A model generated the notes under the pieces. It worked only from the letters and a program-made list of their open reading frames with translations, searched no databases and was not told the DNA's origin. Below, one piece after another: positions 2,333 to 18,088 of a stretch of DNA of 52,148 nt (its first letter is position 1; the number at the start of each line of letters is the position of its first letter). The stretch is taken from assembly GCA_028122735.1 (NCBI GenBank), contig JAOHSR010000006.1, positions 1 to 52,148 of the forward strand, written 5' to 3'. The position numbers were made by a program, and so were the translations under genes. This DNA is from Flavobacteriales bacterium. GTDB taxonomy: Bacteria > Bacteroidota > Bacteroidia > Flavobacteriales > BACL11.

Positions 2333-3388
2333 TTAAAAAACATCTGTTATTTCAATGGAATCTGTAGGTAATGGTGAATTTGTTGAAAAGCCATCAATTA
2401 TTGGAATTGTATAATAGACACTTCCATAGCCTGTCCAGCCTCCATATCCTCCATTTATATTACTAACTATATTAAGAGGTTCTTGAAAAGGATTTCCGTT
2501 TGAACCAAATTGTCTTACAATACTTCTCCAAAATCTTAAAGCTGGCTCATCAATTTGACAAAACTTAATAATTACTTTGTCATTAGGAACAAATACACTG
2601 TCTTCAATTCCATTATTTTCATAAGTTTCATATCTATTGGTATTATATGGGAAAGCAGGGAAGTTACCATCTCCTTTTTGAGGAAAATATGTTTCAAATC
2701 TAGTACCGTTAATTAAAATGTCTGTTCCAGCATCAATTAATTCCATCAAAGCATCACTTTCATCTTTTAATTGCCCAGTTAAAGAATCTACTCCCCAATG
2801 TATTGGTTTACGATATTTAATAAGGATATTATTTTGTGTTTCACCTGGGTCATTATAAATAGCTCTAATATCAAATTCATAATCTAAATCTGTAAATTCA
2901 TTTTTCTCAACCCAAAGACAATCAAGGGGTGTAATTGAAGGAATAGTAGTTTGACTTGTAATTTTTTTATTATTCCATCTTACTATGAGATTATATGTTT
3001 TATTTTCTTGGCTAAAATTAAATCCATTATTTAAATATTGATTATTTGCATATGGAGGATTACTTAAAGAAGCTAAATAGTTTATGTCTGTATAAATTGG
3101 AATAGAATCAAATGGTGGTGGTAGTGGTTGTAAAAAAATAGAATCTGCTGTTCCATCTTCTTTAGTTGTCCAGACTACAACTTCAGCATCCTTTATAAAT
3201 AAATTTTGGTAAGTATTGCTGTTAATTTCATCAAAGTATCCTTGATTTTTTGATAAAATCACATAGGGTGGCATATTAGCTTCAATTCCTCCTTCAACAA
3301 CAATTTGTTGTGCGCCAACAGGAAAATCCAACGAAATTTCCTCTTGACATGATATAAAGCACAAAAAGATTAAAATATATTTTTTCAT
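2333..3388 (-). CDS. DUF4249 family lipoprotein, partner of the TonB-dependent receptor
   Basis: A 351-residue predicted lipoprotein. The short hydrophobic leader ends in a lipobox-like ...CFISC segment with the likely acylated Cys at residue 14. The following EISLDFP and QQIVVEGGIEA segments resemble the start of DUF4249 proteins, which in Bacteroidota sit directly after TonB-dependent receptor genes. Only 2 bases separate it from the receptor gene, so the two are almost certainly cotranscribed. The substrate is unknown. By analogy with SusD-type partners it may act as a surface lid or binding subunit, but that role is inference and DUF4249 is not a SusD fold by obvious sequence. Confidence 0.8.
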   Translation of the reverse strand: MKKYILIFLCFISCQEEISLDFPVGAQQIVVEGGIEANMPPYVILSKNQGYFDEINSNTYQNLFIKDAEVVVWTTKEDGTADSIFLQPLPPPFDSIPIYTDINYLASLSNPPYANNQYLNNGFNFSQENKTYNLIVRWNNKKITSQTTIPSITPLDCLWVEKNEFTDLDYEFDIRAIYNDPGETQNNILIKYRKPIHWGVDSLTGQLKDESDALMELIDAGTDILINGTRFETYFPQKGDGNFPAFPYNTNRYETYENNGIEDSVFVPNDKVIIKFCQIDEPALRFWRSIVRQFGSNGNPFQEPLNIVSNINGGYGGWTGYGSVYYTIPIIDGFSTNSPLPTDSIEITDVF

Positions 3389-3390
3389 AA

Positions 3391-5790
3391 TTAAAAGTTA
3401 AAATTCCATGTTACAGATGGTAAAATTGGAAATATTGAAACTTGATATGCTTTTGGCTCAACATTACCATTTTGAATATTTTGATTTTCGCCATCTTCTT
3501 CCAATCCTTCAAGAGCAAAATAAATGAAATACGGGTTTTTTCTTGAATAAACATTATATATAGAAAAGTTCCAAGTAGATTCAAACTTTTTATTTTTCCT
3601 CTTTTTATTTTTTCTTTTTGATGGGGTATAAGTAGCTCCAATATCCATTCTGTGGTAAGGAGTTGTTCTGTAACCATTTCTAGCTGTAAATTGAGTGTAG
3701 ACATCACCTCCAATTACATATCTTTCTGTAGGAAGTGTTATTGAATTTCCTGTAGCATAAACAAAAACACCACTCAATACCCAAGAATTAGATAGCTGAT
3801 GAGTAGCAGTTATTGATAAATCATGTCTTCTATCATATTTTGCAGGAAATTCTAATCCATTATTTACTTCATCAAAATATCTAGTTGTTTTTGATAATGT
3901 ATATCCAATCCATCCAGTCGTCTTTCCTCGATTCTTTTTTAATAATACCTCAACACCATAGGAATCACCATCTCCGAATGTAAAGGAATTATCACTACTT
4001 GAATTGGTATTGTCTTCTGGAAGATAACCCTCTCTGTATTCAATAAGATTTGTCATTTCTTTATAGTATCCTTCTAAAGATGTTTCAAACATGTTATCAT
4101 TAAAGTTTTTAAAATATCCTAATGCATATTGTTTAGCAAATTTTGGTTTAATTCCAGTGGAACTTGGCACCCATAGATCTGTTGGAAGACTTACAGATGA
4201 AGTAGAGGCTAAATGAATATATTGATAATTTTCACTGTATGAACCTTTTATTGAACTTGTTGTATTTAGTTTGTAACGAAGTGATAATCTAGGTTCAATA
4301 TTTCTATAATTATCATTGCTTAAGGTTAAATCATTTTTTAAGTATGTAAATAAATTTATATCTCCTCTGTGTTGAAATGATGAATATCTTAATCCTGCAT
4401 TAACTTTTAAATCATCTGACAATTCAAAATCATCAGAAAAATATAAAGCACCTTCATTTGAATATTGTCTAAATATTTCATCTGGAGCAAATTCAACATC
4501 ACCAGCTCTTCCAGTTGCGTTTCCTGGTGTGAAAATATGATATGTGTAATTAGCACCAAACTTTATAGTGTGACGTTGATTTGGCTGATAGAGAAAATCA
4601 ACTTTAGTATTCCAATCATTAATACCAGAGAAAATTTTAAATTCAAAATCACTTTGGGCTAAGTTGAACTCAAATCTATAATCACTGAAAATAATAGAGG
4701 TATTCATAAATAATTTATCACTAAAAAGGTGATTCCATCTTAATGAACCAGTCGCATTTCCCCAAGGAATTTCTATTGCAAAACCATTGTCACTATTGGC
4801 AAAGCTAAAAACGTCTCTACCAAAATAACCACTTAAGTAAAGTCTGTCTTTATCAGAAACTCTGTAGTTAATTTTAGATGTAAGATCATAAAAATAATAA
4901 CCTGATCCAGCAAACGCATTAGGCTCTCCAGTTTCAGGATCAACTCTGTCTAAAAATGGTTGAGATAATACATCAATGTAAGTTCTTCTTCCAGAAAGAA
5001 TAAATGAGCTTTTTTCTTTTTGAATAGGACCTTGTAGAGTTAATCTTGATGATAGAAGGCCAATTCCTCCATCAGCCTGATATTTTTTATTATTTCCATC
5101 TTTCATCGAAATATCTAAAACTGAAGATAATCGACCACCATACTCTGCAGGCATACCACCTTTAATAATATTTATATCTTTTATTGCATCAGCATTAAAA
5201 ACTGAAAAGAAACCAAAAAGGTGAGAAGCATTATAAACAACGGCTTCATCTAATAAAATAAGGTTTTGGTCAGGCCCACCACCTCTAACGTAAAGTCCCG
5301 AACTTCCTTCGCCGTTTGAAGTGATACCTGGTAATAACTGAGCTGATTTTAAAACATCAACTTCACCAAGAATTACAGGAAGTTGTTTGATATTGCTAAC
5401 CTCAATTTTTACTTGACTCATATTTGAGCTGCTTACATTTTGGTCTGATTTTTCACCAGTTACTATTACTTCATCGGTAAGAATTGTATTACTTTTTAAT
5501 GAAATATTTAATCTAACATCATTGTTTAGTTCAACTGATTTATTTTGAGATTCTAGTCCGATAAATGAATATGTAATATCATATTTTCCTTTAAGTAGAG
5601 TTAATGAGTAAAAACCATATTGATTTGTTACGGTTCCTTTTAGAGAAAGCTTGTCATATATAGATACTCCAATCAAATTTTCACCCGATTCATCATCTTG
5701 AACATAGCCACTGATAGTGAAACTATTTTGTGAAAATGCATTGAAACATAATATATTAGCAAATAAAATTATTAAAATTCTAAATTTCAT
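3391..5790 (-). CDS. TonB-dependent outer membrane receptor with carboxypeptidase-like regulatory domain
   Basis: A 799-residue outer membrane active transporter. A signal peptide (ANILCFNAFSQ) is followed by a carboxypeptidase regulatory-like beta domain (about 25-105: ISGYVQDDESGENLIGVSIY and KGTVTNQYGFYSL). Next comes a plug domain (about 125-230: GLYVRGGGPDQNLILLDEAVVYN and IKGGMPAEYGGRLSSVLDI), then a long beta barrel ending in aromatic WNFNF, the expected C-terminal strand. It forms a two-gene unit with the DUF4249 lipoprotein and has its own candidate promoter at 5808-5842. It lies directly downstream of the paa operon, which might suggest an aromatic substrate, but the sequence does not show one. 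Confidence 0.93.
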   Translation of the reverse strand: MKFRILIILFANILCFNAFSQNSFTISGYVQDDESGENLIGVSIYDKLSLKGTVTNQYGFYSLTLLKGKYDITYSFIGLESQNKSVELNNDVRLNISLKSNTILTDEVIVTGEKSDQNVSSSNMSQVKIEVSNIKQLPVILGEVDVLKSAQLLPGITSNGEGSSGLYVRGGGPDQNLILLDEAVVYNASHLFGFFSVFNADAIKDINIIKGGMPAEYGGRLSSVLDISMKDGNNKKYQADGGIGLLSSRLTLQGPIQKEKSSFILSGRRTYIDVLSQPFLDRVDPETGEPNAFAGSGYYFYDLTSKINYRVSDKDRLYLSGYFGRDVFSFANSDNGFAIEIPWGNATGSLRWNHLFSDKLFMNTSIIFSDYRFEFNLAQSDFEFKIFSGINDWNTKVDFLYQPNQRHTIKFGANYTYHIFTPGNATGRAGDVEFAPDEIFRQYSNEGALYFSDDFELSDDLKVNAGLRYSSFQHRGDINLFTYLKNDLTLSNDNYRNIEPRLSLRYKLNTTSSIKGSYSENYQYIHLASTSSVSLPTDLWVPSSTGIKPKFAKQYALGYFKNFNDNMFETSLEGYYKEMTNLIEYREGYLPEDNTNSSSDNSFTFGDGDSYGVEVLLKKNRGKTTGWIGYTLSKTTRYFDEVNNGLEFPAKYDRRHDLSITATHQLSNSWVLSGVFVYATGNSITLPTERYVIGGDVYTQFTARNGYRTTPYHRMDIGATYTPSKRKNKKRKNKKFESTWNFSIYNVYSRKNPYFIYFALEGLEEDGENQNIQNGNVEPKAYQVSIFPILPSVTWNFNF

Positions 5791-5856: not shown

Positions 5857-7920
5857 TTATACAATATTTAATTTATTTTTAATTTCAATTTCAATCTTCT
5901 GCGGATTGGGTAACATTCTCTCTTCAAGAATCGAATTTAAAGGAATTGCTGGTAAATTTTCAGAACCAACTACAGATACAGGACTGTCTAAGTGATTAAA
6001 GCAATTTTGACTGATTTTTGATGCTAACGATTGTGCAAATGAGTTATTGGATGGTTCTTCGCTAACTAAAATACAGTTACTATGTATTTTAACTTTTTCA
6101 TATATGTATTTTTCATCTAAAGGATAAAGTGTTCTTAAATCAATAATTTCTATTTGGTTATTGAATTTTTCTGCAGCTAATTTTGACCAATATACTCCCA
6201 TCCCATACGTGATAATACAAAGGGAATTTCCTGTGTTTATTTTTTTTTCATCTGCTACTAAAACAGATTTAGCAATTCCAAATGGTAAAATATAGTTTTC
6301 ATCAGGCTCTAATGTTTTAGTTTTTTCTGTGCCTTTCATTTTTCCCCAATATAAACCCTTATGCTCAAGAATTACAACAGGATTTGGATCATAATATGCT
6401 GCTTTTAAAAGACCTTTAAGATCAGCAGCATTTGATGGATATGCTATTTTAATTCCATGTATATTAGTTAGAATAGATTCTACAGATGATGAATGATAGG
6501 GGCCGCCACTTCCATACGCTCCTGTAGGAACTCTAATTATACAGCTTATAGGCCATTTTCCATTAGAAAGATAGTAAGATCTACTAACCTCAGTAAATAA
6601 TTGATTAAGTCCAGGCCATATATAGTCAGCAAATTGTATTTCAACAATGGGTTTTAAGCCTAATGCTGACATACCTACAGTACTACCAATTATAAATGCT
6701 TCTTGTATTGGAGTATTAAATACTCTCTTATCTCCAAATTTTTCACCAAGAGTTGCCGCCTCTCTAAAAACTCCGCCTAATCTTTTTCCAACATCTTGAC
6801 CGTATAGTAGACATTCTTTGTGTTTTGTCATTAATTCTTTTATTGCACAAATACCAGCATCAACCATATAAATAGGTTCGCTATTATCTTTATTTACAAG
6901 CTCTGTTTCTTTAAGATTTTCTGTTGGTGCAAATTTATGATCAAATAAATCATCGGCTTTAGGATCATCAGCTGCTAATGCCTTTTTGTATTCTTTTTGA
7001 ATTTCTTCTTTTATTTTTTTTTCTATTGTTATTAATTCTGCTTCATTAAAATTTTGACTCACTAATAACTTTTTAATTTTTGGAAATGGATCTTGTTTTT
7101 CTGCCTTTTCTAAATCATCTCTATACCACTCCATTCTAACTCCAGAAGTATGATGATTTAAAAGAGGAACTTTTGCATGTACTAAAACTGGAATTTTTTT
7201 ATCTCTAATTTCAGAAATAGCTTTAGAAATAGTATTGTATGAAGCTTCAAAATCACTTCCATCTATTGAATAGCTTTTTATTCCAAAACCTTTGGCGTAT
7301 GTTGCAGCATCAACAGCTCTTGTTTCAGACGCATGTGCTGATATATCCCATTCATTATCTTGTACTAAATAAAGAATAGGAAGTTGTTTGAGTGATGCCA
7401 TTTGAAATGCTTCGGCAACCTCACCTTCGGTGATTGATGCATCTCCAAAAGAACACACAACAACTGGTTTTTTGTTTAGGTAAGTATCCTTAAAATTATT
7501 ATCATATTTATATTTCAGTCCAAGTGCAATTCCTGTAGTTGGAATTGCTTGCATACCAGTAGCTGACGATTGATGAATAATCTTAGGCATATCATCTCTT
7601 TTAAGTGATGGATGAGAATAATATGTTCTTCCTCCAGAGAATGGGTCCTCTTTTTTGCACATTAATTGAAGCATTAGCTCGTATGGAGTTATCCCAATAC
7701 CAAGAAGAATTGAATCATCTCTGTAATATGGAGAAACCCAATCATATTCTTTTAATTGTAACGCTAATGCTAATTGAATTGCTTCATGCCCTTTTGATGT
7801 AGCATGTACATATTTGGATGTTATTTCTTTGTTTTTTTCATAAATATCACTTAATGCTCTAGCACTGCACATTAGTGAATATGCTTTTTTTAGTATCTCT
7901 TTAGGTAATTTTTTTGACAC
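5857..7920 (-). CDS. 2-oxoacid dehydrogenase E1 component, fused alpha and beta subunits
   Basis: Thiamin-diphosphate-dependent E1 that decarboxylates a 2-oxoacid and passes the acyl group to a lipoyl E2. The N-terminal half (about 1-330) is the alpha subunit, with the ThDP motif starting GDASITEGE at 159 and ending in DNEWDIS near 190. The C-terminal half (about 345-687) is the beta subunit, with YGQDVGKRLGG and an EAFIIGSTVGMSALG segment. At 687 residues it is full length for the fused form seen in Bacteroidota. It follows the crotonase gene with no gap and is the last gene of the paa operon. No E2 or E3 gene is in the window. It could be a branched-chain E1. Its place in an operon lacking paaK raises the possibility of phenylpyruvate as substrate (inference). 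Confidence 0.88.
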   Translation of the reverse strand: MSKKLPKEILKKAYSLMCSARALSDIYEKNKEITSKYVHATSKGHEAIQLALALQLKEYDWVSPYYRDDSILLGIGITPYELMLQLMCKKEDPFSGGRTYYSHPSLKRDDMPKIIHQSSATGMQAIPTTGIALGLKYKYDNNFKDTYLNKKPVVVCSFGDASITEGEVAEAFQMASLKQLPILYLVQDNEWDISAHASETRAVDAATYAKGFGIKSYSIDGSDFEASYNTISKAISEIRDKKIPVLVHAKVPLLNHHTSGVRMEWYRDDLEKAEKQDPFPKIKKLLVSQNFNEAELITIEKKIKEEIQKEYKKALAADDPKADDLFDHKFAPTENLKETELVNKDNSEPIYMVDAGICAIKELMTKHKECLLYGQDVGKRLGGVFREAATLGEKFGDKRVFNTPIQEAFIIGSTVGMSALGLKPIVEIQFADYIWPGLNQLFTEVSRSYYLSNGKWPISCIIRVPTGAYGSGGPYHSSSVESILTNIHGIKIAYPSNAADLKGLLKAAYYDPNPVVILEHKGLYWGKMKGTEKTKTLEPDENYILPFGIAKSVLVADEKKINTGNSLCIITYGMGVYWSKLAAEKFNNQIEIIDLRTLYPLDEKYIYEKVKIHSNCILVSEEPSNNSFAQSLASKISQNCFNHLDSPVSVVGSENLPAIPLNSILEERMLPNPQKIEIEIKNKLNIV

Positions 7921-8676
7921 TTATTTGCTTTTGAATCTTGCAATAGCATTTTTTGTAAAATCAGACAATACAAGTTGTCCACTGTATTCAGCTCTTTTTT
8001 CTAATAATTCATCCCAATGATTTGTGTTTGACCAGATAGCTTCTTTAAGCTTTTTCATTGCTTCAGGATTTGAATTTGTTAAATTATCGGCAAGTTTATT
8101 GATTTCTTGATCCATTTCTTCATTGGTGTCATATACTTCTGAGTATATGCCTTTTTCTCTAGCCCAAGAGGCAGTAAACCACTTGGTTGCATTAATTGAT
8201 AATGTCGAATATGCTGAAACACTAGATTTTTTTTCTACGGCTGGTCCAACTACAAATGGTCCAATACCAACTGCTAATTCACTTAGTTTAACAGATGCAT
8301 ATTTTGTAGCAAAACAATAATCTCCGGCACACGCCATACCTACACCACCACCTACAGCTTTACCTTGAACTCTACATATTATTAATTTAGGACATTTTCT
8401 ACATGCATTAATTACATTAGCAAATCCCATGAAAAATTTCTTTCCAACTCTAAAATTATCAATACTTGATAGTTCATCAAAAGATGCACCAGCACAAAAA
8501 GCTCTGTCACCTTTGCTTTTAATAATAACAACTTTTATTTCATCGTTAGTACCGGCTTGAGAAATTGTGCTAGCAAGTTTATTTAGTATTTCTGATGGAA
8601 GAGAATTACTTTGAGGATGAAAGAATTCAATAGTTCCAATATTATTTTTTATTTCTAATGTAACTGACCCTTGCAT
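7921..8676 (-). CDS. Crotonase-family enoyl-CoA hydratase/isomerase, probably serving the PaaF step
   Basis: A 251-residue crotonase-fold protein. Visible features are the oxyanion-hole segment AFCAGASFDEL near 59 and GKAVGGGVGMACAGDY at about 105-120. The position usually held by the first catalytic Glu (GGGxE) is Gly113. The second acidic position is kept as Glu133 in KLSEL. The following GIGPFVVGP replaces the usual IPGAGGTQRL. Having one of two catalytic Glu is more typical of isomerases or divergent members, so hydration of 2,3-dehydroadipyl-CoA (PaaF) is inferred from the operon. Otherwise paaF is missing from the locus. It abuts its neighbours on both sides with gaps of 0 bases. Confidence 0.82.
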   Translation of the reverse strand: MQGSVTLEIKNNIGTIEFFHPQSNSLPSEILNKLASTISQAGTNDEIKVVIIKSKGDRAFCAGASFDELSSIDNFRVGKKFFMGFANVINACRKCPKLIICRVQGKAVGGGVGMACAGDYCFATKYASVKLSELAVGIGPFVVGPAVEKKSSVSAYSTLSINATKWFTASWAREKGIYSEVYDTNEEMDQEINKLADNLTNSNPEAMKKLKEAIWSNTNHWDELLEKRAEYSGQLVLSDFTKNAIARFKSK

Positions 8677-9438
8677 TTATTTGATAATGTATTTCTTTTC
8701 TACTAAACCATTTTCATATCTTATAATATTTAAGTCTTTTGAGTTTACTTTTTTCTTTTTTCCTAAAATATCAAATGTTCCAATAATTTTTAAATTTAGA
8801 TTATTTGTATTGTTCTCAATTCCTACTGGCGGAGGACACGGAGGTGAAACTGCAGAATCAACCTGAACATCTTTGGCAATAGTATCTACACAGACTTGAC
8901 CATTATAATCTTCTGAAACAATAAAAGTGACAGGATTTATACCAGCATAATTAAAAGTTGCAGTACAATTAGGATTTACTGCATTTGGTGGGTTTGCATC
9001 TCCAAAAATATAAAACCAACTACCATTATTTAATGGAGGTGTTCCATCTCCAGGCGAAGACACATCTACGAAATTTGTAGGATCGCCTATACAAACTATA
9101 TCAAAGAAAAAATCTGCAACTGGAGGACAGTAAATTTCAATATTAATTGTTGTGTCATCTGAGATACCATCCACATCAGTAACGGTTAAAGTAATATCAT
9201 ATGTTCCACATTGACTAAATATATAATCTCCATTTTGCTGAGTTGAATAAGTATTTCCATTATACTGCCAGTCCCAAGATGCTATTGAAGAATTTGTATT
9301 TGGGTCTGGAGTTGAAAAATCTGAAGGTGTAAATATACTTCCTAAACAAACTGGATTAAAGATAAAGCTAGCTGTTGGTCCGCTTTGAGACCATAGTAAA
9401 CACGGTGTCAAAAATAATATTAGTAGTATTTTTTTCAT
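8677..9438 (-). CDS. Secreted PKD-domain protein with a C-terminal T9SS-like sorting segment
   Basis: A 253-residue exported protein of unknown function. A signal peptide (MKKILLILFLTPCLLWSQ) is followed by two PKD-like beta-sandwich domains, about 22-105 (ASWDWQYNG, then CGTYDITLTVTDVDG) and about 110-195 (GSWFYIFGDANPP, then VTFIVSEDYNG). Each carries paired cysteines. The last 40 residues (FDILGKKKKV, then IIRYENGLVEKKYIIK) resemble a type A type IX secretion sorting domain. It sits 2 bases after paaZ and directly before the crotonase gene, so it is part of the paa operon although it must act outside the cytoplasm. No enzyme domain is visible, and I cannot assign a role. Confidence 0.85.
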   Translation of the reverse strand: MKKILLILFLTPCLLWSQSGPTASFIFNPVCLGSIFTPSDFSTPDPNTNSSIASWDWQYNGNTYSTQQNGDYIFSQCGTYDITLTVTDVDGISDDTTINIEIYCPPVADFFFDIVCIGDPTNFVDVSSPGDGTPPLNNGSWFYIFGDANPPNAVNPNCTATFNYAGINPVTFIVSEDYNGQVCVDTIAKDVQVDSAVSPPCPPPVGIENNTNNLNLKIIGTFDILGKKKKVNSKDLNIIRYENGLVEKKYIIK

Positions 9439-9440
9439 AA

Positions 9441-11492
9441 TTATTTGTTTTTTATCATTGTTAAAATAGTAGCTAGCATAACTGTTTCATTTTCATCATC
9501 ATAAACATCTACTAAGAATTTTACTATTCCTTTTGCCACATCCTCTTCATTTTTCTTTTCTTGACTGATTTTTTCCTTTGCTGTAAATTTAACTCCAATG
9601 GTCATTCCTGGATATACCGGTTTTATGAATCTACATTCATCAATTCCATAATTTAATAATACTGGACCCTTTGAGGGATCAACAAATAAACCAGCTGCTT
9701 TTGAAAGAATAAAATACCCATGAGCAACTCTTTCTGTAAAGATAGTCCCTTCTAATGAATTTTCATCCATATGAGCATAAAACTTATCTCCACTTAAATC
9801 AGCAAAATTTTCAATATCATCAAGAGTAACTGTATGTAAATCAGTTATTACAGTGTCACCTATCTCAATTTCTTCAAAATGTTTTCTAAAGACATGAGGA
9901 CCATCTGTATTTTGAGATGCTCCTACTTGATATTGTTTTGTAATTGCAGTAATAGCAGTTGGATGACCTTGGATAGCAGTTCTCTGCAAATAATGTTTTA
10001 TTCCTCTTATTCCGCCCATTTCTTCACCTCCTCCGGCTCTTCCTGGTCCTCCATGAGTAAGTAATGGCATTGGTGAGCCGTGTCCGGTACTTTCTTTTGC
10101 ACATGATTCATTTAGAACTAATATTCTCCCATGCATGTTAGCAGCTCCTAAGACAAAAAGATTAGCGGTATTCATATCATTTGTAACTATTGAAGAAACT
10201 AAAGATCCTTTTCCCATTCTACTCAATTCAATTGCTTCATCAAGAGTTTTATATGGCATTATTGTTGATACTGGACCGAAAGCTTCTACATCATGACAAT
10301 CTGTATTTGTAAAAGGATTTTTATTAACGAATAGGGTAGGAGAAATAAAGGCTCCTTTGCCTTTTTCAGCACCAATTAAATCAATTTCATTATTACCAAA
10401 TACTATTTCTTGAGAGTTGCTGAGTAAATTAATTTTTTCTGAAACTTCTTTTAATTGCTCTAATCCAGCTAAACTTCCCATTCTCACTCCATCTACTTGA
10501 GGATCTCCAATAGTTGTTTTTAATAATCTATTACATATTGCTTTATTTACATCTTCTAATAATTCTTCAGGAACAATTATTCTTCTAATTGCAGTACATT
10601 TTTGACCAGCTTTAACAGTCATTTCTTTTTGAACTTCTTTAACAAATAGATCAAATTCTACAGTTCCAGGAACGGCATCTTTTGCAAGAACTGAGCAGTT
10701 TAATGAATCAGCTTCCATATTAAATGATACAGCTTCATCAACTATCTTTGGATGCGATTTTAATTTTTTACCTGTTGAAGCACTTCCTGTAAAAGTAACT
10801 ACATCTTCAGATGATATATTATCAAGTATTCCCCTTGCACTTCCACAAATTAACTGTATGCAACCTTCAGGTAATATCTTAGAATCAATTATCTCTTTAA
10901 ACATTACTTGAGTAAGATATGAAGTTATTGTGGCTGGTTTAACAATTGCAGGCATCCCTGCCATAAGATTTACAGCAATTTTTTCTAACATTCCCCAAAT
11001 TGGAAAATTAAAAGCATTTATATGAACTGCTACTCCATGCTTTGGAACCATAATATGATGTCCAATAAAAGTTCCGTTTTTTGATAAGTTTGCAGCATTT
11101 CCTTCAACATGATAAGGAAGATCTGGAAATTGCCTTCTTAGTGAAGCATTGGCAAATAGATTTCCAATACCTCCTTCAATATCTATCCAAGAATCAATTT
11201 TTGTTGCACCACTAAGATAACTTATTGGGTAGAATTGTTTTTTTTTAGCATGTAGATGTAGGGCAAGTTTTTTTAACATTAACCCTCTTTCTTGGAAAGT
11301 CATTTTTCTTAGAACTTCGCTTCCAGTTCCTCTAGCATAATTCATCATTTTCGAAAAATCTAAACCATCCGAAGAGACTACACCAATTTTTTCTCCATTT
11401 ATTGCATTGTATAAAGATGTTCCATCTCCATCACCTTTTACCCATCTACCAAATGCGTAGTTTTCAAAGTTTTTTATTTTGTTTTTTTCCAA
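9441..11492 (-). CDS. paaZ: PaaZ, bifunctional oxepin-CoA hydrolase and semialdehyde dehydrogenase
   Basis: Opens the oxepin ring of the phenylacetate pathway and oxidises the resulting semialdehyde to 3-oxo-5,6-dehydrosuberyl-CoA. The 683 residues match the fused PaaZ length. The N-terminal aldehyde dehydrogenase domain (about 1-520) has the general base Glu260 in SFNMEADSLN and the nucleophile Cys299 in KAGQKCTAIRR. The C-terminal MaoC-type hot-dog domain (about 535-683) has FADLSGDKFYAHMDE at 563-577 and VAHGYFILSKAAG. Both catalytic halves therefore look intact. It overlaps the end of paaY by 19 bases, which implies translational coupling. Confidence 0.97.
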   Translation of the reverse strand: MEKNKIKNFENYAFGRWVKGDGDGTSLYNAINGEKIGVVSSDGLDFSKMMNYARGTGSEVLRKMTFQERGLMLKKLALHLHAKKKQFYPISYLSGATKIDSWIDIEGGIGNLFANASLRRQFPDLPYHVEGNAANLSKNGTFIGHHIMVPKHGVAVHINAFNFPIWGMLEKIAVNLMAGMPAIVKPATITSYLTQVMFKEIIDSKILPEGCIQLICGSARGILDNISSEDVVTFTGSASTGKKLKSHPKIVDEAVSFNMEADSLNCSVLAKDAVPGTVEFDLFVKEVQKEMTVKAGQKCTAIRRIIVPEELLEDVNKAICNRLLKTTIGDPQVDGVRMGSLAGLEQLKEVSEKINLLSNSQEIVFGNNEIDLIGAEKGKGAFISPTLFVNKNPFTNTDCHDVEAFGPVSTIMPYKTLDEAIELSRMGKGSLVSSIVTNDMNTANLFVLGAANMHGRILVLNESCAKESTGHGSPMPLLTHGGPGRAGGGEEMGGIRGIKHYLQRTAIQGHPTAITAITKQYQVGASQNTDGPHVFRKHFEEIEIGDTVITDLHTVTLDDIENFADLSGDKFYAHMDENSLEGTIFTERVAHGYFILSKAAGLFVDPSKGPVLLNYGIDECRFIKPVYPGMTIGVKFTAKEKISQEKKNEEDVAKGIVKFLVDVYDDENETVMLATILTMIKNK

Positions 11493-12067
11493 GTTTTAAA
11501 GATGTTTTTTTGTTTTTCTTTTCTATTTATTTCTATCTTTTTTAAAGGTTCGCATTCCTTCATTAATGTGTAACATTCGTTAGGTAAATCTTGATATAAT
11601 TCTGTTCCTTTAGTTTTCCAACTTATCATCTCATCAGAAACTTCACCTTTAATAATTGCAGGGTTTCCAACTACTATTTTTCTATTTGGAATATTCATTT
11701 CACCTTTTACAAAGCATAATGCTCCAATAATACATTCATCACCAATATTACAATCGTCCATTATTACTGAATTCATGCCAACTAAAGTATTTTTCCCAAT
11801 ATTTGCACCATGCACTATTGCACCATGACCAATATGTGCGTTTTCTTCAAGAATTACATCCTTTCCAGGAAAAATATGTATAGTACAATTATCTTGAACA
11901 TTACACCCATCTTTAATTGTAATTTTTCCCCAATCTCCGCGTATTGATGCTCCTGGACCAATATATACCTTTTTACCAATTATTACATTGCCAATTATTG
12001 TTGCTTCTTTGTGAACAAATGATGAAGGGTCAATAACAGGCTTATATCCATTGAATTCATAAATCAT
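11474..12067 (-). CDS. paaY: PaaY-like gamma-carbonic-anhydrase-family hexapeptide protein
   Basis: A left-handed beta-helix protein with repeated hexapeptides (TIIGNVIIGKKVYIGPGAS, HIGHGAIVHGANIGKNTLVG) and gamma-carbonic-anhydrase-type histidines in CTIHIF and HIGHGAIVHG. In other bacteria PaaY is a thioesterase that clears dead-end CoA esters from the phenylacetate pathway. I place the start at the ATG at 12067, one base after paaJ. An in-frame ATG at 12082 would add MKKYN and overlap paaJ by 14 bases. The C-terminal tail is Lys-rich and runs into paaZ. The family is clear, and the PaaY assignment rests on the operon. Confidence 0.88.
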   Translation of the reverse strand: MIYEFNGYKPVIDPSSFVHKEATIIGNVIIGKKVYIGPGASIRGDWGKITIKDGCNVQDNCTIHIFPGKDVILEENAHIGHGAIVHGANIGKNTLVGMNSVIMDDCNIGDECIIGALCFVKGEMNIPNRKIVVGNPAIIKGEVSDEMISWKTKGTELYQDLPNECYTLMKECEPLKKIEINRKEKQKNIFKTWKKTK

Positions 12068-12068
12068 A

Positions 12069-13271
12069 TTATACTTTTTCAATTATAGTTGCATACCCTT
12101 GTCCAACACCAATACACATTGTAATCAACGCATACTTTTTATTTTGTTTGTGTAATTCAATTGCAGCAGTATGAATAATTCTTGTTCCGCTAACTCCAAG
12201 AGGATGGCCAATTGCAATAGCTCCTCCGTTTGGGTTTATTCTTGGGTCATTATCTTCTAAACCCCATTCTCTTATACATGCTAATGCTTGTGCGGAGAAT
12301 GCTTCATTTAGCTCTATAATATCAATATCCTCCAAATTTAGACCTGCTTTTTCTAATGCTTTGTTTGAAGCTTTTACAGGTCCTATCCCCATAATTCTTG
12401 GCTCAACCCCTACTACTGCTGAACTAATAATTCTTGCTATTGGAGATAAATTATTTTCTTTTACTCCATTTTCTGAGGCTAAGAGCATTGCAGCAGCACC
12501 ATCATTTAATCCAGATGAGTTTCCAGCTGTCACAGTTCCACCTTCTTTTTTAAATGCTGTTCTTAATTTTGCTAAAACATCAACTTTAGTATTTCCCTTT
12601 ATAAATTCATCATGCTCAAATAAAATAGGGTCTTTTTTCCTTTGAGGTATTTCAATTGGAACTATTTCTTCAGAAAGTCTTCCAAGTGATTGAGCTTTAT
12701 ATGCTTTTAATTGAGAATGGTAAGCAAAATTATCTTGATCTTCTCTTGAGATATTATATTTTTCAGCGAGGTTTTCTGCAGTTGTACCCATTCCATCAAC
12801 TCCATATAATTCTTTCATCTTTGGATTAATAAATCTCCATCCAAATGAAGAATCAAACATTTGAGCATCTCTACCAAATGCTTTAGAAACCTTTGAAATA
12901 ACCCATGGTCCTCTTGTCATATTTTCAACACCCCCAGCAATAAAAAGATCACCATCACCCGATTTAATTGCTCTATGGGCATTAATAATTGCAGACATTC
13001 CTGATGCACACAGCCTGTTTATAGTTTCACCAGGAACAGAAAATGGTATTCCAGCTAATAAACTTGCCATTCTTCCAACGTTCCTATTATCTTCACCAGC
13101 TTGATTTGCACAACCTAAAATTACATCATCGATTTTAGAAGGTTCAATTTTTGTTCTCTTAATAAGTTCTCGAATTGGTATTGCAGCTAAATCATCTGTT
13201 CTAATATCTTTTAGTGTTCCTCCAAAATTTCCGATTGGAGTTCTAATAGAATCTATTATATATGTATTCAT
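12069..13271 (-). CDS. paaJ: 3-oxoadipyl-CoA / 3-oxo-5,6-dehydrosuberyl-CoA thiolase
   Basis: Cleaves the two beta-keto intermediates of the pathway with CoA. It is a type II thiolase of about 400 residues with the acyl-accepting Cys in INRLCASGMSAI (Cys88 from the chosen start), the His of GGAIAIGHPLGVSGTR, and the C-terminal catalytic Cys in MCIGVGQG. It closely resembles the PcaF/PaaJ group. The ATG at 13271 overlaps the paaI stop as TAATG, a coupling arrangement also used between paaH and paaI, so I prefer it to the ATG at 13280 (MDIMNTYI). Confidence 0.95.
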   Translation of the reverse strand: MNTYIIDSIRTPIGNFGGTLKDIRTDDLAAIPIRELIKRTKIEPSKIDDVILGCANQAGEDNRNVGRMASLLAGIPFSVPGETINRLCASGMSAIINAHRAIKSGDGDLFIAGGVENMTRGPWVISKVSKAFGRDAQMFDSSFGWRFINPKMKELYGVDGMGTTAENLAEKYNISREDQDNFAYHSQLKAYKAQSLGRLSEEIVPIEIPQRKKDPILFEHDEFIKGNTKVDVLAKLRTAFKKEGGTVTAGNSSGLNDGAAAMLLASENGVKENNLSPIARIISSAVVGVEPRIMGIGPVKASNKALEKAGLNLEDIDIIELNEAFSAQALACIREWGLEDNDPRINPNGGAIAIGHPLGVSGTRIIHTAAIELHKQNKKYALITMCIGVGQGYATIIEKV

Positions 13272-13681
13272 TATATCCATTCTTTATTTGAAATATATAC
13301 AGTGCCTTTAAAAAAGGCAACTTTTTCATCTTCTTGATTTAAGATGTCAATTGAATATATTCCAGTTTTATTATTTAGATTAATCTCATTTGTTTCAGCA
13401 ATTAATGTGTCATTAATATTTACTTTTTTGGTATGCGAAATTGATGTTTCTATTGATAAAGCTTTTTTCCCATTAGAATTTGAAGCAAAAGCTAATGCAC
13501 TATCAGCAAGAGAGTAACAAATACCTCCATGAGCCAATTCAAAACCATTAGTCATATCTTGTGAGATTTTCATTTGTAGTTTACAATATCCTTTTTTAAC
13601 TTCTATTATTTTTATTCCTAACCATTTACTAAATGCATCATTAAGAATCATTTTATTTACAATATCTAGAGGCTTTAGCAT
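13271..13681 (-). CDS. paaI: PaaI hot-dog acyl-CoA thioesterase
   Basis: Hydrolyses hydroxylated phenylacetyl-CoA esters, probably to rescue CoA from stalled intermediates. The 136-residue single hot-dog domain carries the signature NGFELAHGGICYSLADSALAFA (residues about 44-65), in which the HGG and the following Asp are the family's active-site region. The start ATG overlaps the paaH stop codon as TAATG and the end overlaps the paaJ start in the same way, so the three genes are tightly coupled. Length and motif fit PaaI well. Confidence 0.94.
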   Translation of the reverse strand: MLKPLDIVNKMILNDAFSKWLGIKIIEVKKGYCKLQMKISQDMTNGFELAHGGICYSLADSALAFASNSNGKKALSIETSISHTKKVNINDTLIAETNEINLNNKTGIYSIDILNQEDEKVAFFKGTVYISNKEWI

Positions 13682-14832
13682 TAGTAAAACTTCATATTTT
13701 CTTTTGTCATTTTTCTTAAAATAGGAGAGGGTCTATATCTATCTTCACAATATTTATCATAAAGTGTTTCTAATATTTTAAATATGGTAGCAACACCAAT
13801 TTCATCTGCCCATTTTAATAATCCTTTAGGATAATTCACTCCTTTTGTCATTGCTAAATCTATATCCTTTTTTGAGGCAATATTTAAATAATATGCATCC
13901 GCAGCTTCATTAACAAGCATAGCAAGTATTCTTAAAACAATGTTTTTACCTAACTCTCTATTTTTAGAAATATTTTTTTCACTTTCATATATGTAATTAT
14001 AGAATCCTCTTCCAGTTTTTTTACCTAAGTAGCCAGCTTCCATCAGTCTTTTTTGAGTAAATGAAGGTTTATATCTTTGATCAAAATAAAATTCTTCAAA
14101 AACAGTTTTGGTTACGGTATAGTTTATGTCATTTCCTATAAAATCCATCAATTCAAACGGTCCCATTCTAAAACCACCAATTTCCTTCATTGCCCAATCA
14201 ATAGTTTCAAAATTAGCCAATCCTTCTTCAAAAATTCTTATAGCTTCTCCATAGAATGGTCTTGCAACTCTGTTAACTATAAATCCTGGAGTATCTTTTG
14301 TTGTAACAACAGTTTTTCCCATTTCTTGAAGAATTTTCTTGGATTCCTCTACTGTTTTAATATTTGTTTGAATAGCAGGAATAATCTCAACTAGTGGCAT
14401 TAAATTTGCAGGATTAAAAAAATGCATACCAATAAATCTGCCATTTTCATTTACTGAACTTGCTAGTGAAGTTATTGAAAGAGAAGAGGTGTTGGTAGCT
14501 ATAATACATTTTTTGCTCACAATTTTTTCAACCTCAGTAAATAATTTTTTCTTTACCTCAGGGTCTTCAATTATTGCTTCTATTAGAAGATTACTATTCT
14601 TAATTTTTTTTATATCCTCAGTAAAATTTAAATTTTCTAAAATGTGAGAGTATTCTTTTTCAGTATATTTTTCTTTTTCTTTTAATTTACTTAGAAGAGT
14701 TAATAGCTTTTTCTTACCATGTTTTAAAGATGTTTTGGAAGAATCAAAAATCGTAGTAGAGTGATTTTTTTGAGCCATAAAGTGTGCTATACTTATACCC
14801 ATAGTTCCAGAACCTATAATGCCTATATTCAT
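13681..14832 (-). CDS. paaH: 3-hydroxyadipyl-CoA dehydrogenase
   Basis: Oxidises 3-hydroxyadipyl-CoA to 3-oxoadipyl-CoA with NAD. The Rossmann motif IGSGTMG is at residues 5-11. The 3-hydroxyacyl-CoA dehydrogenase signature is visible at about 135-190 (GRFIGMHFFNPANLMPLVEII, then TPGFIVNRV) with the catalytic His in HFFNP. The C-terminal part (about 185-383) holds the dimerisation domain (GGFRMGPFELMDFIG) and a second, shorter copy-like region (GVNYPKGLLKWADEIG). At 383 residues it is longer than the roughly 285-residue single-domain enzymes, consistent with a second 3HCDH C-terminal domain. The stop codon overlaps the paaI start. Confidence 0.94.
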   Translation of the reverse strand: MNIGIIGSGTMGISIAHFMAQKNHSTTIFDSSKTSLKHGKKKLLTLLSKLKEKEKYTEKEYSHILENLNFTEDIKKIKNSNLLIEAIIEDPEVKKKLFTEVEKIVSKKCIIATNTSSLSITSLASSVNENGRFIGMHFFNPANLMPLVEIIPAIQTNIKTVEESKKILQEMGKTVVTTKDTPGFIVNRVARPFYGEAIRIFEEGLANFETIDWAMKEIGGFRMGPFELMDFIGNDINYTVTKTVFEEFYFDQRYKPSFTQKRLMEAGYLGKKTGRGFYNYIYESEKNISKNRELGKNIVLRILAMLVNEAADAYYLNIASKKDIDLAMTKGVNYPKGLLKWADEIGVATIFKILETLYDKYCEDRYRPSPILRKMTKENMKFY

Positions 14833-14833
14833 T

Positions 14834-15604
14834 TTAATTTCCTTTAAAATTTGGTTTTCTTTTTTCTAAAAAGGCACTTACACCTTCTTTATAATCATTA
14901 GTTTTTCCAGCAATTGTTTGAGCAATTTCCTCTTCATTTAATTGTTGTTCGAGAGAATTATTAATAGATTGATTTAGTAATTTTTTAGTTAAACCAATTC
15001 CTTTTGTTGGCATTTTTGCTAATTTTTCAGAAAAAGATTTAATTTCATCTTCAAATTTAGATTCTTCGACTACTTTATAAATCATACCTAATCTTTCAGC
15101 TTCTGTTGCAGAAATTGGATCAGCATTCATCATAAGTGCTGATGCTTTTTGAAATCCTATTAATCTTGGAAGGAAGAATGTCACTCCACTATCAGGTACT
15201 AATCCAATTTTGCTGAATGCTTGAACAAATACAGCACTTTCTTTTGCAATAACAATATCACAACATAAGGCAATAGAAGCACCAGCACCTGCTGCAACAC
15301 CATTTACAGCAGCAATAATTGGTTTTTCTATATTCCTTATTTGTCTAATAATTGGATTGTAGTGTTCATTAACTATCTTCTGTAGTTCAGGTCCATCAGG
15401 GTCAGTTGCTTCTCCGAGATCTTGTCCAGCGCAGAATGCTTTTCCAGTTCCAGTAATTACAATAGCTCTAATATTATTATCATTTTTACATATTTCTAGT
15501 TTTTCTTGTAAATCTAGAGCCATTTCTCTAATAAAAGAATGGTATTTCTCAGGTCGGTTTAGAGTGAGAGTTGCAACTTGGTTTTTTATTTCAAATAATA
15601 TCAT
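14834..15604 (-). CDS. paaG: PaaG, ring-1,2-epoxyphenylacetyl-CoA isomerase
   Basis: Isomerises the PaaABCE product, the ring epoxide of phenylacetyl-CoA, to the oxepin. The crotonase fold is shown by GKAFCAGQDLGE (oxyanion hole, about 55-66), NGVAAGAGASIALCCDI (101-117) and QAFSKIGLVPDSG. Asp138 in LVPDS lies where PaaG enzymes have their catalytic carboxylate. The 256-residue length is normal. The gene follows paaD after a 50-base AT-rich gap, the largest inside the paa operon, and ends one base before paaH. Confidence 0.95.
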   Translation of the reverse strand: MILFEIKNQVATLTLNRPEKYHSFIREMALDLQEKLEICKNDNNIRAIVITGTGKAFCAGQDLGEATDPDGPELQKIVNEHYNPIIRQIRNIEKPIIAAVNGVAAGAGASIALCCDIVIAKESAVFVQAFSKIGLVPDSGVTFFLPRLIGFQKASALMMNADPISATEAERLGMIYKVVEESKFEDEIKSFSEKLAKMPTKGIGLTKKLLNQSINNSLEQQLNEEEIAQTIAGKTNDYKEGVSAFLEKRKPNFKGN

Positions 15605-15654
15605 ATCTTAATAAAAGTATACTGTAAAAATAAGAAATGACTATTATATTAATC

Positions 15655-16107
15655 CTATATACATTTGAAATGTTCAAAAGGTTCTAAACAATCATTGCAT
15701 TTGTACATTGATTTACAAGCAGTAGCGCCAAACTCACTTATTAGTTCAATTTCTTTTGATTTACATTGAGGGCAGGAAGCATTTTTTTCAGGTGGAGATA
15801 TGCCATAATCTCTTAATTTTTCTTTAGTTTCTTGTGTCATCCAATCTGTTGTCCAAGCTGGTTTATATACAATTTCAATCTTAAAATTATTTATATTGTT
15901 AATTTTTAACTGCTCTTTTATATCATCTTGAAAAGTTTTCACAGCAGGACAACCGGAATATGTTGGTGTAACTGATATTACATATTCATTTTTAATTAGT
16001 TGAACATCTCTAATAACACCTAGTTCAACTACAGATATCACAGGTATCTCTGGATCAGGTACTGATCCTAATATTTGCCAGATTTTATCAATTTTACCAT
16101 TTTGCAT
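15655..16107 (-). CDS. paaD: PaaD, phenylacetyl-CoA epoxidase assembly subunit
   Basis: An accessory protein of the ring 1,2-phenylacetyl-CoA epoxidase, thought to help metal-centre assembly. An N-terminal DUF59/MIP18-like domain carries SVPDPEIPVISVVELGV and TPTYSGCPAV. The C-terminal zinc-ribbon-like region has CPQC, then FGATACKSMYKCNDC and EPFEHFKCI. The family normally starts near the KIDKIWQIL segment, so I take the ATG at 16107. The open frame also extends to an ATG at 16140, 11 codons further inside paaC. With the chosen start the overlap with paaC is 14 bases. Confidence 0.94.
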   Translation of the reverse strand: MQNGKIDKIWQILGSVPDPEIPVISVVELGVIRDVQLIKNEYVISVTPTYSGCPAVKTFQDDIKEQLKINNINNFKIEIVYKPAWTTDWMTQETKEKLRDYGISPPEKNASCPQCKSKEIELISEFGATACKSMYKCNDCLEPFEHFKCI

Positions 16108-16840
16108 CTGGATATGCTCTAGGTAGATACTGCATTTCACTTAATATTTTTCCAAGCATCTCAGTATGAATCCCTTTTCTACTACCAGTCATCATATATC
16201 CATCTTCGGGTCTTTTAAGCTTTGCTTTAATTAATGTTTCATCAACTAATTTATCCCAATCTTTTTTTAAAGTTTTGTTGTTGACACCAATTTTTTCTTT
16301 TAGCATTTTCTTGTCTAATTCATCCATCTCAAAAAATTCACCTGTATATTTCCAAATATTGTTCAATGATTTTTGAATTTTATCTTTACTTTCTTGTGTT
16401 CCATCCCCAAGTCTAATAACCCAGTTGCTTGAATGTCTAAGGTGGTAACTAACTTCTTTTAATGATTTTGTTGCAAGAGCTGATAAGGTTTCATCTTTAC
16501 TTTTTTCTAATTCTTGATAGTATAATTTAAAATAGATGTCAATCAAAAATTGTCTAATTATTGTATCTCCAAAATGACCGTTTTCAATTTCACATATTTG
16601 GAAATTATAAAACTCTCTTTCATCTCTTTTAAACGCATATTCATCTGGAGATATTTCTCCATTTAATTTTGATACATATTCTAATAATCCATTTGCTTGG
16701 CCCAATAAGTCAAGCGATATATTGGAAAGAGCTATATCCTCTTCTAGTGAAGGGCCTTTTGAGCACCATTCAGAAAGTCTTTGAGAGAGGATAAGAGTAG
16801 TGTCAGCTATTCTTAATATATACTTTTCAATGTCAGTCAT
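16094..16840 (-). CDS. paaC: PaaC, structural subunit of phenylacetyl-CoA epoxidase
   Basis: The non-catalytic ferritin-like partner of PaaA. The 248 residues show the characteristic N-terminal ADTTLILSQRLSEWCSKGPSLEEDIALSNISLDLLGQA, written here in parts: LSEWC at about 21-25, and EEDIALSNI followed by SLDLLGQA. A helical YHLRHSSNWVIRLGDGTQES segment and a C-terminal GSRKGIHTEMLG segment follow. The start is directly adjacent to the paaB stop, and the 3' end overlaps paaD. It forms the PaaA-PaaC core of the epoxidase complex. Confidence 0.96.
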   Translation of the reverse strand: MTDIEKYILRIADTTLILSQRLSEWCSKGPSLEEDIALSNISLDLLGQANGLLEYVSKLNGEISPDEYAFKRDEREFYNFQICEIENGHFGDTIIRQFLIDIYFKLYYQELEKSKDETLSALATKSLKEVSYHLRHSSNWVIRLGDGTQESKDKIQKSLNNIWKYTGEFFEMDELDKKMLKEKIGVNNKTLKKDWDKLVDETLIKAKLKRPEDGYMMTGSRKGIHTEMLGKILSEMQYLPRAYPDAKW

Positions 16841-17119
16841 TTATATATGCTTTGAGCCATCTGGCATTTTGTAAAATGTTGGATGTCTGTAAACTTTATC
16901 ATTTGATGGGTCAAAAAAAGATTCTTCGTCTTCAGGAACTGAGGAAACAATATGTTCTGATTTAACTACCCATATACATGAACCCTCATTTCTTCTGGTA
17001 TATAAATCTCTTGCATTTTGAAGAGCCATTTCTTTATCCTCTGCATGTACATTTCCTACATGTTTATGAGCTAAACCATTTTTACTTTGAATGAATACTT
17101 CCCAAATAGTTGCTTCCAT
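16841..17119 (-). CDS. paaB: PaaB, small subunit of phenylacetyl-CoA epoxidase
   Basis: A 92-residue bridging subunit of the epoxidase. Recognisable segments are WEVFIQSKNGLAHKHVGNVHA at the N-terminus and RDLYTRRNEGSCIWVV in the middle, ending FYKMPDGSKHI. In characterised systems PaaB is needed to connect PaaAC dimers, although its exact role is structural. Gaps to paaA and paaC are 2 and 0 bases. The length is normal for the family. Confidence 0.96.
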   Translation of the reverse strand: MEATIWEVFIQSKNGLAHKHVGNVHAEDKEMALQNARDLYTRRNEGSCIWVVKSEHIVSSVPEDEESFFDPSNDKVYRHPTFYKMPDGSKHI

Positions 17120-17121
17120 GT

Positions 17122-18036
17122 TTACGAATTTTGTTTTTCAGCATATGCTTTTGCTGCTTTTCTAACCCATTCTCCATCTTCATGAGCTTTAATATGATGA
17201 TTTAATCTTTGTTCATTACACGGCCCATTTCCATTTACTACACCCCAAAATTCATCCCAATTAATTTCACCAAAATCATAAGAACTTCTTTCTTCATTCC
17301 ATTTTAAATCAGGATCAGGAATTTTTAAGCCAATTAATTCTGCTTGTGCAACTGTTTTGTCAATGAAGTCTTGTCTGAGTTCATCATTGGTTTTTCTTTT
17401 AATTTTCCACTTCATAGCATTTCCTGTTCTTGGTGAATCAGAATCATGAGGACCGAACATCATTATCGAAGGCCACCAGAATCTATTTAGAGCATCTTGT
17501 GCCATTTCTTTTTGCTCTTTGGTGCCATTAGCCATTTCACTCATAATTTCATAACCTTGTCTTTGGTGGAAGCTTTCTTCTTTACAGATTTTTACCATCC
17601 CTCTAGAATACGGTCCGTATGACGTTTTTTGTAGCGATACTTGATTTACAATTGCGGCTCCATCAACTAACCATCCAATAGCACCCATATCAGCCCAGCT
17701 TAGGGTAGGATAATTAAAAATACTTGAATACTTTGCTTTTCCTTGGTGTAGTTGGCTGTTTAATTCATCTCTTGATATACCAAGTGTTTCGCAAGCACTA
17801 TAAAGATATAACCCATGTCCTGCTTCATCTTGAACTTTGGCTAATAATATCATTTTTGCTCTTAGTGAAGGTGCTCTGGTTATCCAATTTCCTTCAGGTT
17901 GCATTCCAATTATTTCTGAGTGAGCATGTTGTGAAATTTGTCTGATTAGATGACTTCTGTATCCATCAGGCATCCAATCTTTAGGCTCAATTTTTTGTTC
18001 TGCATCAATTTTTTTCTGAAATAATTGTTCTTGCAT
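17122..18036 (-). CDS. paaA: PaaA, catalytic di-iron subunit of phenylacetyl-CoA epoxidase
   Basis: Inserts one oxygen atom into the aromatic ring of phenylacetyl-CoA at a carboxylate-bridged di-iron site. From the start used here the protein has 304 residues, normal for PaaA. Iron-ligand segments are visible as [17 protein letters not shown] and [14 protein letters not shown], together with the conserved [22 protein letters not shown] stretch near the N-terminus (written across residues 20-42). The open frame extends to 18102, but a strong promoter at 18058-18088 lies inside that extension, so the ATG at 18036 is the likely start, giving a short leader. It is the first gene of the paa operon. 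Confidence 0.96.
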
Positions 18037-18057: not shown

Positions 18058-18088
18058 CAAAGTTATCGAAATTATATGATTTTTACAA
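18058..18088 (-). promoter_or_regulatory. Promoter of the paaA operon
   Basis: The minus strand reads TTG (18086-18088), a 20-base spacer, then TAACTTTG (18058-18065). This fits the Bacteroidota -33/-7 consensus TTG-N17-23-TAnnTTTG. Transcription should begin near 18050, about 15 bases before the paaA ATG at 18036. A direct repeat CAATTTAA at 18086-18093 and 18100-18107 overlaps the -33 element and could be an operator half-site pair (inference). Confidence 0.7.

Follow-up and report, generated by a model that had tools for sequence, protein, structure and literature searches.

A conserved exported two-PKD protein encoded between paaZ and a crotonase gene in a phenylacetyl-CoA operon of Flavobacteriales

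The closest described relatives of the protein reported here are the PKD-domain proteins of Bacteroidota, the clostridial collagenases and the type A cargo of the type IX secretion system (T9SS), and those of its locus are the phenylacetyl-CoA operons. Bacteroidota PKD proteins, among them giant multi-PKD frames of ~1,000–5,600 residues, share the PKD_4 domain with it, with stretches 34–43% identical in the best matches listed, but our protein has two domains only, is 253 residues long and is encoded within a catabolic operon. The PKD domains of solved structure, which we take to be of clostridial source, match it in sequence (E 9.2e-9 to ColH); in the collagenases, however, PKD is an accessory module of a protease, whereas no enzyme domain was recognised here. 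T9SS type A cargo (TIGR04183/PF18962) has in common with it an apparent signal peptide, an exported body of Ig-like modules and a C-terminal segment that closes with conserved Lys and Ile residues, and the genome encodes SprA; in contrast, the tail of our protein is ~40 residues long, lacks the first half of the signal with its PNP motif and escapes TIGR04183, and type A signals, given as ~100 residues in PMC12618676, are far longer.

Phenylacetyl-CoA operons resemble the present one in the genes paaABCD, paaG, paaI, paaY and paaZ, a thiolase and a dehydrogenase, and differ from it in that here an exported-protein gene lies within the operon and in that the phenylacetate-CoA ligase gene paaK is not evident. 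No strong match to TIGR02155 was found in 19 genomes of the family (best 33 bits), some of them 97–99% complete, in a search that covered this ligase and with a cut-off below which even clear paaK relatives from other families fall. Despite the missing paaK match, the paa genes share one operon (5857–18036) with a fused 2-oxoacid dehydrogenase E1, and phenylpyruvate may instead be the source of phenylacetyl-CoA in this family. A survey of paa genes inspects the neighbourhoods of paaK homologues (PMC13186573), a design that would probably miss a paaK-less lineage.

The window, a stretch of 52,148 nucleotides, contains the following features, the paa names being read from translations and conserved order, with only paaZ tested against a named paa family.

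11474–18036, minus strand: rest of the operon, paaY, thiolase, paaI, HBDH, paaG, paaD, paaC, paaB and paaA (close same-strand genes)
9441–11492, minus strand: paaZ, upstream neighbour at a gap of 2 bases (TIGR02278, 867.7 bits against a cut-off of 562.8)
8677–9438, minus strand: exported two-PKD protein, 253 residues (ORF; PKD_4 54.1 bits, two stretches; same-site orthologues in six further genomes)
9385–9438, minus strand: signal peptide, residues 1–18 (by eye: Lys-Lys, a hydrophobic core, then WSQ; alike in the seven aligned orthologues)
9130–9378, minus strand: first PKD domain, about residues 21–103, with Cys31 and Cys77 (PKD_4 stretch 48–98; limits by eye)
8857–9120, minus strand: second PKD-like domain, about residues 107–194 (second PKD_4 stretch counted, and alignment; limits by eye)
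8680–8799, minus strand: C-terminal tail of ~40 residues, residues 214–253 (A1 profile, leave-out test, and profile comparison with type A tails)
7921–8676, minus strand: crotonase/enoyl-CoA hydratase, PaaF-like by position, gap 0 (PF00378, 2.2e-28)
5857–7920, minus strand: fused alpha/beta E1 of a 2-oxoacid dehydrogenase (E1_dh, Transket_pyr, Transketolase_C)
3391–5790, minus strand: TonB-dependent receptor downstream of E1 (PF00593, 6.6e-23; synteny with six orthologous loci)
2333–3388, minus strand: DUF4249 gene paired with the receptor, gap 2 (PF14054, 1.6e-16)

A sequence-only reading of this DNA had described an exported protein of 253 residues with two PKD-like domains, its gene separated by 2 bases from paaZ and by none from a crotonase gene; the ORF, which begins with ATG and whose stop directly adjoins the crotonase ATG, the PKD_4 match and the positions confirm this. 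The protein begins MKKILLILFLTPCLLWSQ, and its presumed N-terminal Sec signal peptide, called by eye, is clear across all seven orthologues. The PKD_4 (PF18911) score exceeds the Pfam gathering cut-off of 27, with two stretches counted, the tool placing only the best of them at residues 48–98; the collagenase PKD structures match residues 32–102 of the first domain. Two structure models of the protein had mean pLDDT values of 37.8 and 32.4 and were unusable; the evidence for the second PKD domain is therefore its Pfam count and the alignment. Five cysteines (31, 77, 104, 116 and 183 in window numbering) are invariant in the seven orthologues, Cys116 and Cys183 of the second domain being among those kept in all, and a sixth, located after that domain, is shifted in two of them. 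The C-terminal end is a basic and hydrophobic tail.

The reading had also held that the neighbours are all cytoplasmic enzymes, which is true of the nearest genes but not of the neighbourhood as a whole, because the same-strand run continues past E1, after 66 bases, with a TonB-dependent receptor and then the DUF4249 gene. E1 and the receptor come next in all six other orthologous loci (in G005 and G002 the contig ends within the receptor, and in G001 and G030 the receptor is split over several reading frames), and a DUF4249 gene follows in the PKD-gene clade wherever it is in view.

The explanation we favour, and consider rather probable, is that the gene encodes a conserved two-PKD cargo protein of T9SS type that borrows the operon transcript and serves as a binding or spacer module at the surface or in secreted form. 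The operon would supply its expression, Sec would carry the protein out of the cytoplasm, and the type IX machinery would most likely pass it outside by means of the short tail, taken to correspond to the closing portion of a type A signal. Its two PKD (Ig-like) modules, probably disulfide-bonded and apparently non-catalytic, would then act at the cell surface; the binding or spacer role appears the most likely because no enzyme domain was recognised.

Full-length matches of 50–100% identity occur in seven of 149 genomes, its own included, among the matches listed; everything else on the list covers part of the protein only, in many cases within frames of at least 1,000 residues. At E ≤ 1e-20 the gene is present in seven of 52 genomes of the family, of which four belong to genus g1 and three to genus g2, with no match at this threshold in the family's other 13 genera. 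Wherever the paaZ/crotonase junction can be seen in g1 and g2, in seven genomes, it holds the gene. In the remaining three g1 genomes no complete paaZ is seen, so that the junction is out of view and they neither support nor contradict conservation. The sequence-only reading had named absence from all close relatives, together with a lack of cotranscription, as pointing to a recent accidental insertion; the gene is present in close relatives, and the seven junctions show that it is not a recent accident. The spacing is similarly kept, with gaps to paaZ of 2, −1, −4, 4, −4 and 7 bases and gaps to the crotonase gene of 0, 1, 1, 0, 1 and 1 bases in G005, G001, G002, G021, G007 and G030, respectively.

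The seven carriers form one clade (SH-aLRT 100) in a 37-row tree built from paaZ, crotonase and E1, and the gene has been inherited at the paaZ/crotonase site since the common ancestor of the two genera. Purifying selection acts on it: dN/dS in six pairs was 0.090, 0.256, 0.196, 0.075, 0.139 and 0.143, against 0.030 to 0.176 for the compared neighbours, with dS saturated or nearly so in the more distant pairs. The PKD gene had the highest value in five of the six pairs and is thus constrained, though more loosely than the enzymes. In GC, GC3 and codon use it does not stand out within the window.

We infer that the gene is transcribed with the operon, since the gaps are tiny and leave no room for an intergenic promoter, and that its translation is coupled, since three orthologues show overlaps of 1 to 4 bases; the phenylacetyl-CoA operon transcript is thus the probable template for the PKD protein, with translation coupled to that of paaZ and the crotonase gene. 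Promoter searches returned chance numbers of hits, with 60 sigma-70-like hits against 65.5 in shuffled sequence and 10 matches to a Bacteroidota-type pattern against 10.6. One of the latter, at 18088–18058 on the minus strand, is located just before paaA and is the sole one on that strand below 18100. A terminator-like site at 9680–9665 (minus strand) falls inside paaZ, ahead of the PKD gene, and is one of eight such sites against 4.9 expected.

The C-terminus had been called type IX sorting-like, a claim that survives in part: the standard model misses the segment, whereas a profile of the lineage's own tails recognises it in the orthologues. No NCBIfam model, TIGR04183 and TIGR04131 included, matched the segment at E ≤ 1, and the type B cargo domain TIGR04131 had no hit in the protein at that threshold. 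The gene's place was not among the 55 matches of a genome search with TIGR04183, which found 33 places above its cut-off in the same genome. A tail profile of 17 rows (A1), five of them tails from the PKD-gene clade, detected 14 places in this genome at E < 1e-6, the PKD gene's included. As A1 contains clade tails, the profile was rebuilt from the other 12 rows; this leave-out profile found the six orthologues at E 2.1e-9 to 4.9e-5 and the window's own tail only at E 0.15, yet at the right place, residues 218–253.

At E ≤ 1e-4, A1 was positive in 31 of 35 genomes, including all 29 of the family, so that a short tail missed by the standard T9SS model in at least this protein marks 8–50 places per genome there. 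Beyond the family, six genomes were searched: G057 (family f7) had 37 places and G059 (f9) 7, and the four others, one genome from each of four families, had none. With the leave-out profile, 354 complete ORFs sampled from G007 and G015 gave 23 tail hits, and the reversed proteins none. The best tail domain ended within three residues of the C-terminus in 20 of the 23, and a crude rule assigned a signal peptide to 16 of them, compared to 110 of the 331 other ORFs; some of the seven tail-bearing ORFs lacking one look fragmentary or wrongly started.

Comparison of A1 with 15 of the 26 type A tails extracted from the genome gave an hhalign probability of 85.8 (E 5.4e-6, 38 columns), in which the short tail aligns to the last part of the type A signal only, without the PNP motif. 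The short tail thus resembles the end of type A signals in a manner suggesting distant relationship. For HBP35, a review reports that the last 22 residues, with motifs D and E, are enough for secretion of GFP (PMC10202324). SprA, the T9SS translocon protein, was found in 14 of the 15 genomes searched, that of the PKD gene included; in G000 it scored 1964.5 bits against TIGR04189 (positions 4–1521 of 2319). Export of the PKD protein by the T9SS is likely in view of the tail evidence and the presence of SprA in the genome.

To place the gene in a wider setting, the operon junctions were compared in 36 loci of the family, the window excluded; ORFs shorter than 75 residues or on the opposite strand, junctions with more than five ORFs and rearranged orders, such as six loci with paaZ beside E1, were dropped. 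Short-tail genes occupy paaZ|crotonase in 12 of 27 loci, paaY|paaZ in 3 of 30 (three more hold other exported-looking proteins) and paaI|thiolase in 2 of 20, and none was found at the eight other junctions (16–27 loci each). The 12 loci are not independent, since six of them, the PKD orthologues, are one clade; four others hold arylsulfotransferases (that of G015 matches PF05935 at 8.6e-29, the other three being called by eye), G011 holds a remnant and G044 a row of other proteins. Of the remaining 15 loci, 13 have no ORF of at least 75 residues and two, G014 and G027, have tail-less proteins. G040 carries short-tail genes after paaZ on a contig that ends before crotonase, and G035 an arylsulfotransferase before thiolase, at a contig end.

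Two answers to the question of purpose deserve weight, and their probabilities need not sum to one. It is quite possible, if somewhat short of an even chance, that a cargo gene with an unrelated surface function of its own dropped into an operon of moderate expression, at a junction that tolerates inserts, and has been kept there since compaction left it no other promoter. A parallel lies outside the paa operon, where 20 of 22 genomes have an alpha/beta hydrolase (exported, esterase-like) that bears the short tail (for example L002 559–1662; L214–L234). It follows metG in 20 of 21 loci, the twenty-first beginning at a contig end, has rluB beside it in 14 loci and next but one in three, and bears the short tail in 19 of the 21. 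The metG–esterase gap is −8 to 28 bases in the nine g1 and g2 loci in view; in the 11 other loci it is 9 to 59 bases, except for one with −14. The esterase gene is firmly lodged between metG and rluB, and therefore close, conserved linkage to enzymes need not mean evident shared function. The many different proteins at the paa junction point the same way, as does the G011 remnant (L091 10560–10847), 95 residues in which only the ends persist, the signal peptide and start of an arylsulfotransferase being joined in frame to the short tail. However, the inserts cluster at three of the eleven junctions instead of being spread over the operon. Moreover, among 13 short-tail genes in 220 kb of G007 and 18 in 218 kb of G015, samples to which the paa loci had been added on purpose, the paa gene is in each genome the only one packed tightly (≤15 bases) against non-exported genes on both sides.

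The other answer, which we regard as unlikely on balance, is that co-expression with the paa enzymes lets the protein capture, or attach the cell to, an aromatic source, a related job being done elsewhere by the arylsulfotransferases, the known substrates of which are aromatic sulfates. It accords with the occurrence of unrelated short-tail exported proteins at three operon junctions and at none of eight others, and with the four arylsulfotransferases at the paaZ|crotonase junction itself. A control locus behaves differently: the stretch from lpxD through lpxC and lpxA to efp, as far as it is in view, is free of exported genes in 27 of 28 genomes, the exception being G021, whose LpxC match is elsewhere and has a signal-peptide-like neighbour of 253 residues 77 bases away. 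The TonB receptor and, where in view, the DUF4249 gene after the operon in the PKD clade would also fit. Against this answer, the metG/rluB esterase, which has the same tail, is no less firmly placed, the PKD protein has no recognisable aromatic-binding or catalytic site, and the junction is without an ORF of at least 75 residues in 13 of 27 loci, with the 12 insert loci not independent. A functional tie of the protein to aromatic catabolism is unproven; if true, it would mean surface proteins tied to aromatic catabolism in marine Flavobacteriales.

A broader proposal, speculative and in our judgement doubtful, is that the segment paaI–thiolase–paaY–paaZ–paaF is a docking site where, time and again, unrelated type IX surface cargo has come under phenylacetyl-CoA catabolic control, so that the surface would change during aromatic degradation; the cargo would be exported by way of a short, unnamed sorting tail. 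It would comprise PKD modules, arylsulfotransferases, leucine-rich repeat proteins (by eye) and others.

Returning to the type IX cargo reading favoured above, the protein could instead be a periplasmic or outer-membrane-associated PKD protein outside the T9SS, its tail a folding element. The failure of TIGR04183 and the divergence of the window's tail would agree with this, but many exported proteins that are unrelated in the rest of their sequence end in this tail, the pattern to be expected of a sorting signal, and we consider such a location improbable. A chance ORF or a recent accidental or foreign insertion found no support and can be dismissed, given purifying selection, a single clade of seven genomes with orthologues in two genera, and ordinary composition.

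Searches for a phage, plasmid or defence origin likewise led to rejection: viral contigs held no relative of the protein, plasmids one partial PKD match at 30%, PADLOC no matching model, and PHROG one weak tail-protein match (E 0.0011, residues 41–110). Descent from the arylsulfotransferase in the same slot was rejected, no likeness beyond signal peptide and tail being seen by eye. Swapping of protein bodies by recombination at near-identical ends was also considered; median DNA identity was 0.65–0.78 at the ends and 0.61–0.63 in the middle, with 0.85 the largest for a single end pair, and with end identities this low no recent exchange is seen. In titles and abstract openings, with subscription journals mostly uncovered, we found no literature linking PKD or type IX cargo to phenylacetate operons, PKD domains with phenylacetic acid and Flavobacteria, or the type IX system with an operon and arylsulfotransferase.

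Two further arrangements of the junction were observed. In G016, one of the genomes with paaZ beside E1, a signal-peptide-like gene of 223 residues lies between the two, and the genes before paaZ (L089) resemble the T9SS motor genes gldL and gldM. Elsewhere in the order, in families other than this one (L098, L103, L106, L110 and L112), a cytoplasmic-looking protein of 112–119 residues follows paaZ, mostly before crotonase, and by eye the 107-residue proteins of G014 and G027 (L075 and L095) resemble it.
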